From positions 1 through 11,428 of the forward strand of contig JAAENB010000381.1 in NCBI GenBank assembly GCA_024224995.1: a DNA stretch of 11,428 nucleotides, in the 5' to 3' direction. Positions 5,674 to 6,855 of the stretch are shown here, in pieces. The DNA is from a bacterium. GTDB lineage: Bacteria; Spirochaetota; UBA4802; UBA5550. The notes under the pieces are model-generated. The model did not search any database and was not told where the DNA came from. It saw only the letters and a list, made by a program, of their open reading frames with translations. Within the stretch, counting starts at the first letter, position 1. Each line of letters begins with the position of its first letter. Position numbers and translations under genes: made by a program.

Positions 5674-5702
5674 GGGCGGCTGCTCTAACCTTGCAACCGC
5701 CC
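5674..5702 (-). terminator. 10-bp hairpin abutting the tRNA-Gly 3' end
   Basis: On the minus strand GGGCGGTTGC pairs fully with GCAGCCGCCC (one G-U) around a 9-nt loop that contains GGTTAGA. It begins 2 nt after the tRNA-Gly discriminator base. The following sequence (ATCCTAAAAAATTTT) is a poor T-tract, so it may serve as a processing or termination signal. Its loop and arms also resemble a shortened tRNA 5' half (compare GGTTAGAGCA), so a decayed tRNA fragment is an alternative. Confidence 0.45.
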
Positions 5703-5704
5703 GG

Positions 5705-5779
5705 AGGTTTCAGTGAGATTCGAACTCACATTTCCGGGCTTGGCAAGCCCAGTGCTCTTACCAATTGAACTATAAAACC
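5705..5779 (-). tRNA. tRNA-Gly(GCC), atypical
   Basis: The minus strand folds into a full cloverleaf of 75 nt without CCA. The acceptor is GGTTTTA/TGAAACC, then TA. The D stem is GTTC/GAGC around AATTGGTAA, and the anticodon loop is TTGCCAA. The variable region precedes the T stem GTGAG/CTCAC with loop TTCGAAT. The discriminator is U, as usual for bacterial tRNA-Gly, and GCC decodes GGC and GGU. Two oddities stand out. The anticodon stem fits best as 6 bp (CTGGGC/GCCCGG), because one extra base follows the D stem. The acceptor is unusually U-rich for glycine. CCA is not encoded (CCG follows). It could be a divergent mobile-element or phage-type tRNA, but its loop landmarks are intact. Confidence 0.8.
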
Positions 5780-5804
5780 GGTATCATTACTTCCATCTGA
5801 CCAA

Positions 5805-5813
5805 AATTTCCGG
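5805..5813 (-). other. Segment complementary to the region next to the other tRNA half
   Basis: On the minus strand CCGGAAATT (5805-5813) lies 11-12 nt beyond the broken anticodon arm of the tRNA 5' half. It pairs over 9 positions (one G-U) with AATTTTCGG (5933-5941), which runs into the 3' half. The helix could hold the two halves together in one transcript. Confidence 0.45.
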
Positions 5814-5824
5814 ATGTAAACTCC

Positions 5825-5855
5825 AACCCTTGCTCTACCACTGAGCTACCATCCC
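5825..5855 (-). tRNA. tRNA 5' half (acceptor strand, D arm, start of anticodon arm)
   Basis: Read on the minus strand from 5855: acceptor strand GGGATGG, TA, D stem GCTC/GAGC around AGTGGTA, then A and AGGGTT. This is a textbook tRNA start with a consensus A-box. Cloverleaf structure stops at the anticodon arm: the next 45 nt hold no matching anticodon strand, T arm or acceptor 3' strand before the tRNA-Gly gene begins. The complementary acceptor strand CCGTCCC is 41 nt upstream on the same strand (5896-5902). The piece is therefore either the second part of a permuted tRNA gene or a truncated tRNA relic. Identity cannot be assigned because the anticodon is broken. Confidence 0.6.
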
Positions 5856-5894
5856 GTTGCTTGAAAAATGGGCTCCCGCTGAAACGGAGGCATG
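5856..5894 (-). other. 39-nt linker between the reversed tRNA halves
   Basis: This joins the 3' end of one tRNA half to the 5' end of the other on the minus strand. It contains a short imperfect hairpin (CTCCG and CGGGAG arms) and a T-run (CCCATTTTTC). CCA is not encoded after the discriminator; the sequence reads CAT. If the locus is a permuted tRNA, this is the segment removed to expose both mature ends. If it is two relics, it is a normal intergenic spacer, possibly with a weak terminator. Confidence 0.4.
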
Positions 5895-5934
5895 TGGGAC
5901 GGGAGGGGATCGAACCCTCGCACCAGGCTTTGCC
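5895..5934 (-). tRNA. tRNA 3' half (anticodon 3' strand, T arm, acceptor 3' strand)
   Basis: Read on the minus strand: GGCAA, AGCCT (3' side of an anticodon stem), variable GGTGC, T stem GAGGG/CCCTC with loop TTCGATC (consensus B-box), acceptor strand CCGTCCC and discriminator A. Just upstream the sequence (AATTTT) cannot form the 5' side of the anticodon stem, and no D arm or acceptor 5' strand is visible up to 6060. Its acceptor strand pairs 7 of 7 (one G-U) with the GGGATGG of the separate 5' half at 5849-5855. AGCCT pairs with that half's anticodon strand with one mismatch, or in another register with wobbles only. See the linked entry for the 5' half. Confidence 0.6.
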
Positions 5935-6070
5935 GAAAATTCTATCAAGTAAAAGCTGTTTAAGCTGAAACTATAGAGCGATAGACTTAGACTAAAAGGC
6001 TCATTTCCATCTCCAGGATGGCGAGTCCGTAACAATAAGTTTTAAGCTGAGACTGGCTCCATGTTTCATA
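5935..6070. other. Gene-free stretch upstream of the tRNA halves with a direct repeat
   Basis: No ORF or complete RNA gene is recognised. An imperfect direct repeat is present: GTTTAAGCTGAAACT (5958-5972) and GTTTTAAGCTGAGACT (6039-6054), 81 nt apart. There is also a 5-bp hairpin, CCATC/GATGG. I looked for group I intron core motifs and could not establish any. Confidence 0.4.
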
Positions 6071-6820
6071 TTAAAATATATCTTTATGGATAAAGTCAAA
6101 CAGTTTTTCCGCGATTTTGATATTATTTACTTCAACATCATTCGCCTTTGACCGGGCTACTTTTACCGCTTCAACCAGCTTATCCAGCCGCTGGAGCAAT
6201 TCCGATTTCTGCCTCGCCGATATTTTCCCTGAGGAGTAGACCGTTTCATATTTCCCTACCTGGAAATCGAGGTGAAGCAGTTCTGTCTGGGCCGGATGTT
6301 TTTCCGTAGCATCATACTTTACAATAACTTTTGGCCGTTTAATGCTTCTGAATTTCACTTCGGGATCCGTTGTATAGACTCCTACCTTTTCATCGAAATC
6401 CCATTTTCTTGTATGATCAAGGGCTGGTATTGCGAGGTACATCTCCCGCAGTTTATTCAAATGGCTCTCCATTGCCAGGAGCGATGTTGCTGAAAAAGTT
6501 CCAAAATTAACTTCGCCTACAATAAGCTCGGCTTTTACGGTATTGGAACAGTTTGTCTCTTCTTTGGATATATTCGCGTCAATTCCGGCGATAATTGTTT
6601 CCAGGTTTGAACCTAACTGGTCTTTTACTGTTGATACCATTTCTTTGACTTCATCCGGAATCTGCTCGGAATCTTCTTCAAGAGCGATATAATGTTTTAC
6701 CATGCCGTCGAAATTATCCGATTTCTGGCTAAAAGCGTTCTTGCATTCACCAATGACCCTGTTTGCTTTATTTTTCCTATCCTGTTCAACCGCAAGAAGT
6801 TCATGTAATTTGTTAGCCAT
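6071..6820 (-). CDS. Uncharacterised cytoplasmic protein of a widespread family (DUF7873-like)
   Basis: 249 aa from the ATG at 6820, which has GGGGG 5 nt upstream (6826-6830). An in-frame ATG at 6853 lies before the likely transcription start and is rejected. There is no signal peptide or membrane segment. The N-terminus MANKLHELLAVE, the middle LLAMESHLNKLREMYLAIPALD and the C-terminal block YDATEKHPAQ, then VGKYETVYSSGKISARQK and VKVARSKANDVEV, match what I recall of a family common in actinobacteria and bacilli. Those members share K-L-H-E-x-L-A-V-E, a P-x-L-D-x-x-R-x-W motif, E-A-T-x-x-H-P-A-Q and R-A-N-x-x-E-V. Function is unknown. The family name is from memory and would need a profile search. 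The gene is monocistronic between the tRNA region and the barrel gene, with its own -10 box. Confidence 0.85.
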   Translation of the reverse strand: MANKLHELLAVEQDRKNKANRVIGECKNAFSQKSDNFDGMVKHYIALEEDSEQIPDEVKEMVSTVKDQLGSNLETIIAGIDANISKEETNCSNTVKAELIVGEVNFGTFSATSLLAMESHLNKLREMYLAIPALDHTRKWDFDEKVGVYTTDPEVKFRSIKRPKVIVKYDATEKHPAQTELLHLDFQVGKYETVYSSGKISARQKSELLQRLDKLVEAVKVARSKANDVEVNNIKIAEKLFDFIHKDIF

Positions 6821-6855
6821 ATTTTCCCCCAATGATTTTATGTTTACATACATAT

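Follow-up and report, generated by a model that had tools for sequence, protein, structure and literature searches.

A permuted tRNA-like domain at a spirochaete locus, probably part of a conserved bacterial non-coding RNA associated with DUF7873

The analyzed DNA, referred to here as the window, is a stretch of 11,428 nucleotides from a bacterium of the Spirochaetota (contig JAAENB010000381.1). On its minus strand, the two halves of a tRNA-like domain lie in permuted order: the T arm and the acceptor 3′ strand precede the acceptor 5′ strand and the D arm. The first gene upstream of it, also on this strand, codes for a DUF7873 protein. The sole ARAGORN call on the window was a complete tRNA-Gly downstream of the permuted unit. 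The features of the locus are collected in Table 1.

Table 1. Features of the DUF7873 locus in the window, in the order of the minus strand.
Feature	Positions	Strand	Basis and remarks
DUF7873 gene (PF25283), candidate protein partner	6071..6853	(-)	Pfam E 2e-78; family start codon at 6820
5′ domain of the RNA: imperfect hairpin closed by GGAG/CTCY	5958..6068	(-)	fold; limits approximate
Basal helix, 5′ strand	5933..5956	(-)	own-locus pairing stronger than cross-locus pairing, 38 units
T arm of the permuted tRNA-like domain	5903..5919	(-)	motif, alignment
Acceptor 3′ strand, CCGTCCC	5896..5902	(-)	7/7 pairing with 5849-5855; covariation in relatives
Variable loop between acceptor strands	5856..5895	(-)	6-123 nt across 38 units
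Acceptor 5′ strand, GGGATGG	5849..5855	(-)	7/7 pairing
D arm, TA at positions 8-9, GG in loop	5832..5848	(-)	D-stem pairs invariant, 15 sequences
Basal helix, 3′ strand	5789..5813	(-)	own-locus pairing stronger than cross-locus pairing, 38 units
Second, normal-order tRNA-like domain (tRNA-Gly GCC)	5703..5779	(-)	ARAGORN
3′ hairpin with D-loop-like loop AAGGTTAGA	5674..5702	(-)	10-bp stem in the window

The acceptor strands of the window pair at 7 of 7 positions, as the preliminary description of this DNA had reported; one of the pairs is G-U. It had placed the halves 39 nt apart; the spacing is 40 nt, or 39 nt with the discriminator A assigned to the half. The 9-position pairing of the extensions that it had noticed (5941-5933 with 5813-5805) was present in the unconstrained minimum-energy fold, where it is part of a longer helix (5956-5933 with 5813-5789) of 23 bp that contains a single 1x1 mismatch and a single bulge. 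The full permuted unit covers positions 5789-5956 and is larger than the span first described (5825-5934). At the position of the anticodon arm, the folds contain a long helix with an asymmetric internal loop. The whole unit was not more stable than shuffled sequences (z -0.17; 84 of 200 shuffles reached as good a fold). For its flank duplex, equal or better pairing was obtained in 511, 689, and 102 of 5000 shuffles with flanks of 30, 40, and 50 nt, respectively. The fold and flank pairing of the window alone are weak evidence. Judged from the sequences compared below, what exceeds chance is the conservation in relatives, not the window's own fold.

A search with an alignment of 32 DUF7873 proteins gave 54 relatives in genome contigs. 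The labels of these contigs are Bacteroidota, Planctomycetota, Spirochaetota, Actinomycetota, Myxococcota, Verrucomicrobiota, and Pseudomonadota. A script then looked within 1 kb downstream of the gene for a T arm, a 7-nt strand, a loop, a complementary strand, and a D arm, with at least 6 of 7 acceptor positions paired. The preliminary description had suggested looking for the same arrangement in related genomes, and it was found in 34 of the 54 relatives; with the window, 40 units were obtained. Two units with 151-nt loops, which are second pairings of an already paired T arm, were excluded, leaving 38 units for the flank, bulge-helix-bulge, and ARAGORN counts. At this pairing threshold, the script found no unit adjoining DUF7873 in the other 20 relatives. 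The permuted order was observed downstream of DUF7873 genes in seven labelled phyla. Limnoglobus roseus PX52, Zavarzinella formosa, Aureispira sp. CCB-QB1, and Streptomyces longispororuber are harmless carriers in culture. A motif search without a pairing requirement placed both a T arm and a D arm in 34 of 55 loci, one of the 55 being the window; the acceptor strands pair at 7/7 in 33 of these 34. In the case of the exception, L019, the motif picked a wrong D arm, and the pairing-based script finds its 7/7 partner. Among the other 21 loci, 19 gave no T arm and two gave a T arm with no D arm. The acceptor sequences differ between loci yet stay complementary (for instance CGACCCT/AGGGTCG, CTCCCGT/ACGGGAG, and CCCCTTC/GAAGGGG), and the first acceptor pair varies among units (G-C, A-U, U-A). 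ARAGORN called no tRNA overlapping any of the 37 permuted units of the 34 relatives. With the exception of the RNA, the gene neighbours are not conserved among the relatives.

Covariation was assessed in two alignments of units preselected for acceptor pairing. In the first, composed of 14 Bacteroidota sequences and the window, 6 of 7 acceptor pairs were changed on both sides, and 240 of 240 cells pair, whereas slid controls fall to 36-50%. The second alignment holds 17 units of other phyla. Changes on both sides were seen there in 6 of 7 acceptor pairs and in all five pairs of the T stem, and three rows were unpaired in the D stem as drawn. The pairing of the extensions also extends to relatives: in the 38 units, likewise preselected for acceptor pairing, the mean energy was -24.7 kcal/mol for flanks of the same locus versus -14.7 kcal/mol (sd 5.0) for flanks of different loci. 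The z-score was negative in 37 of 38 units, with a value of -2.9 for the window.

A covariance model, R2, was built from 12 sequences with the window left out, and it scored the window at 82.2 bits. DUF7873-type units outside its training set reached 96.6 (L070), 86.0 (L024), 72.6 (L017), and 63.2 bits (L019), and tandem identical tRNAs gave 41-55 bits (maximum 55.3). The Y RNA L059 scored 62.8 bits; L057, a permuted unit whose 3 kb gave no TROVE match, scored 62.3 bits. Units from other phyla obtained 30-46 bits with the models, which is not above tandem identical tRNAs; the case for these phyla therefore rests on position and covariation.

The link to DUF7873 was examined in 193 genomes of one order, 31 of which contain the gene. 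Matches of model R1 of at least 67 bits, a cut-off picked after the scores were seen, occurred in 22 genomes, namely 21 of the 31 DUF7873-positive and one of the 162 negative ones (Fisher 1.5e-19). At 62 bits, the counts were 25 of 31 versus 6 of 162 (2.5e-20). The single negative genome at 67 bits, G191, has the RNA and no DUF7873 match. In the five extra DUF7873-negative genomes at 62 bits, a TROVE gene, 58-64% identical to a fetched one, lies 0.8-0.9 kb from the match; because such a gene adjoins each of these RNAs, we assigned them to the Y RNAs. In L136 and L142-L145, which carry DUF7873-type RNA, neither TROVE nor DUF7873 was found within the 4-8 kb taken, so the RNA can sit apart from the gene. 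Fourteen Bacteroidota genomes with no unit adjoining DUF7873 were searched whole; nine had an R1 match of at least 67 bits elsewhere, and five had none.

Further conserved parts surround the permuted unit. At the base of the 5′ domain, RNAalifold gave five consensus pairs, two of them with changes on both sides. In 18 of the 19 loci labelled Bacteroidota, ARAGORN called a normal-order tRNA 3′ of the permuted domain. The 3′ hairpin, whose loop resembles AAGGYTAG, was present in 16 of 19 adjacent loci (window included) and in 5 of 5 others; of 352 control kilobases, 3 contained similar hairpins. In most loci, the hairpin is followed by a run of T, which is absent in the window. An RNAalifold analysis of 11 whole elements revealed 47 consensus pairs, 32 of them changed on both sides, which span the 5′ hairpin, the permuted domain, the second, normal-order tRNA-like domain, and the 3′ hairpin. 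The case is thus carried by neighbours that the preliminary description did not draw on, namely the DUF7873 gene upstream and the complete tRNA-Gly and the hairpin downstream.

Some variation was seen in these parts. Short repeated motifs, e.g., YAGYYTMA, occur in the 5′ domain upstream of the permuted unit (window 5958-6068); they are perhaps protein-binding sites. The identity of the normal-order domain shifts among relatives, with Gly, Met, Val, Phe, Leu, and Arg calls and some odd lengths. Two permuted units stand in tandem in L036, L037, and L050 (Spirochaetota), in L045, L046, L048, and L051 (Planctomycetota), and in L039, L040, L042, and L043. Two such units in a row mean that the second domain, which has the normal order in Bacteroidota, is itself permuted there.

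The feature in the window probably belongs to a conserved non-coding RNA that is about 400 nt long and associated with DUF7873; it would be the permuted tRNA-like domain of this RNA. The comparison of genomes established the permuted order, the compensatory changes in the stems, the basal helix predicted to replace the anticodon arm, and the DUF7873 association. On these comparative grounds, the permuted order in the window is neither chance nor decay. According to the preliminary description, no established bacterial case of a permuted tRNA was known. This has to be corrected as regards the fold, as the structure of a bacterial Y RNA (PDB 6CU1) is described as superposing on tRNA with a circular permutation (PMC11472068). 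The account of YrlA in PMC8394870 presents a tRNA-like domain and a stem; the basal stem tethers Rsr and the tRNA-like domain binds PNPase, which is a precedent for a permuted tRNA-like fold as an effector domain.

By analogy, the DUF7873 RNA is probably a Y-RNA-like tRNA mimic with DUF7873 as its partner. Its permuted domain, in which the TTCRA of the T loop and the GG of the D loop are kept, would fold like a tRNA elbow and may, in the manner of YrlA, offer this elbow to a nuclease or a tRNA-binding enzyme. DUF7873 would bind or hold the RNA in the position that Rsr occupies on Y RNA, and RNA and protein would act as one particle. The likeness of topology to Y RNA was tested; we infer the partner, target, and role of the RNA. 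A fold search with DUF7873 returned no matched fold suggesting RNA binding, and no mention of DUF7873 was found in the literature covered, a set outside which the main Y RNA papers lie. Such RNAs would be the second bacterial family that mimics tRNA in permuted form; the family is apparently undescribed and was found in seven labelled phyla. This suggests that tRNA mimicry by permuted RNAs extends beyond Ro/Y RNA particles, and DUF7873, as a candidate protein partner, gains a testable role. RNAs of this kind are easily missed: at gathering cut-offs, Rfam 15 gave only tRNAs in the 17 loci scanned (12 of DUF7873 type and 5 with Y RNA).

Alternatively, the RNA could be a true, though divergent, bacterial Y RNA, bound to an Rsr/Ro60 protein whose gene lies at another place in the genome; we consider this unlikely. 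Both YrlA (RF02553) and the DUF7873 RNA have the order T arm, acceptor, D arm, and a mimic of the tRNA elbow on a helix formed by both ends; TROVE was found in 12 of 36 DUF7873 genomes, and the Y RNA L059 reaches the above-mentioned score with the DUF7873-RNA model. The window itself matches the Rfam YrlA model with 26.5 bits, but the gathering score is 69. At E <=10, this model matches 27 of 27 genomes and 13 of 14 controls, with tandem identical tRNAs among its targets. The Rfam cut-off is also a weak test, since TROVE-linked Y RNAs of the same order miss it as well (the TROVE-adjacent L137, L139, L140, and L141, and L059). The permuted RNAs of L137-L141, 0.8-0.9 kb from TROVE genes, look like Y RNAs. 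Their Y-type stem sequence, GTTACTTCG, occurs in the TROVE-adjacent L137-L139, with variants in L140, L141, and L059; it is absent from the window when at most one mismatch is allowed. The RNA was not filed as YrlA because it scores below the Rfam cut-off and lacks this stem sequence. No rsr/TROVE gene was found among the 10 window ORFs scanned. Against a Y RNA, five fetched loci with DUF7873-type RNA gave no TROVE match, and TROVE was not found in 24 of the 36 DUF7873 genomes, many of which are incomplete MAGs. In the five DUF7873-negative genomes of the same order, in contrast, TROVE lies close to the Y RNA. Unlike YrlA, the DUF7873 RNA has DUF7873 as its neighbour, with no TROVE/Rsr neighbour found, a variable and often long acceptor loop, an extra 5′ hairpin, a second tRNA-like domain, and a 3′ hairpin.

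Two further readings concern the acceptor loop. A quite unlikely one takes DUF7873 and the RNA as a new, widespread, Rsr-independent bacterial RNP. Its RNA would carry three tRNA-like elements (the permuted domain, the normal-order domain, and the D-loop-like hairpin), and tRNA end-processing enzymes would remove the acceptor loop of the permuted domain, giving a two-piece, CCA-ended, possibly charged molecule. The other, which we regard as similarly unlikely, is a two-piece tRNA-like RNA whose loop is cut out by RNase P and RNase Z and which becomes CCA-ended and perhaps charged, as in permuted tmRNA. Consistent with cutting are the range of loop lengths (6-123 nt in the 38 units) and C74 after the discriminator, present in 34 of 38 permuted units and in 69 of 78 ordinary tRNA genes of the fetched loci (redundant copies included); of 20 second domains, only 6 have it. 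This pattern fits acceptor-end processing in some lineages. The 6-nt loops of Streptomyces and one spirochaete unit, however, fit a closed hairpin, the acceptor helix runs past 7 bp in L014, L037, and L050, and neither the first pair nor the acceptor sequence is kept. In L008 (9100-9267), a 168-nt acceptor loop lies between acceptor strands that pair at 7/7, as if insertions were tolerated.

The pieces of permuted two-piece tmRNA are described as not re-ligated (PMC3978253). Permuted tmRNA and the DUF7873 RNA are both permuted bacterial RNAs with a tRNA-like end; unlike tmRNA, the latter has a tRNA-type D arm. A tmRNA was rejected: ARAGORN, which reports only tRNA-Gly in the window, called none with a tag reading frame, and the Rfam tmRNA match was 15.7 bits versus a threshold of 84.

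Circularly permuted tRNA genes occur in red and green algae and in some archaea. According to PMC3978253, their halves are re-ligated into a tRNA with an anticodon. The preliminary description had put the locus forward as possibly such a gene, which would mature by ligation into a translating tRNA. Its view that the halves are truly permuted parts of one RNA stands, and the 3′ half before the 5′ half, the sequence between complementary acceptor strands, and the conserved pairing of the extensions agree with it. The tRNA gene itself is very improbable. A bulge-helix-bulge at the leader/trailer junction was present in 0 of 38 minimum-energy flank duplexes, and no proper anticodon stem-loop was found in the folds after joining; the internal loop and long helix take its place. 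Because both features are lacking, the RNA does not belong to the algal/archaeal type. The varying first acceptor pair also argues against this gene. We infer that maturation does not turn the RNA into a tRNA used in translation.

Two decayed tandem tRNA copies, the alternative in the preliminary description, are almost certainly not the explanation: intact tandem identical tRNAs (L062, L063, L064, L066, and L069) do give the T-then-D order with 7/7 pairing, and a complete tRNA-Gly is next downstream, but the half-and-half arrangement is conserved in relatives with compensatory changes, which argues against decay, ARAGORN called no tRNA over the relatives' units, and the model from which the window was left out scored it above the tandem tRNAs.

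Several copies of the RNA per genome were observed in L142 (G005:C23), G095:C19, G099:C2, G014, and G129, some of them in tandem about 0.5 kb apart. Among the 14 control genomes, Deinobacterium chartae is the only one with DUF7873, and it is also the only one with TROVE.
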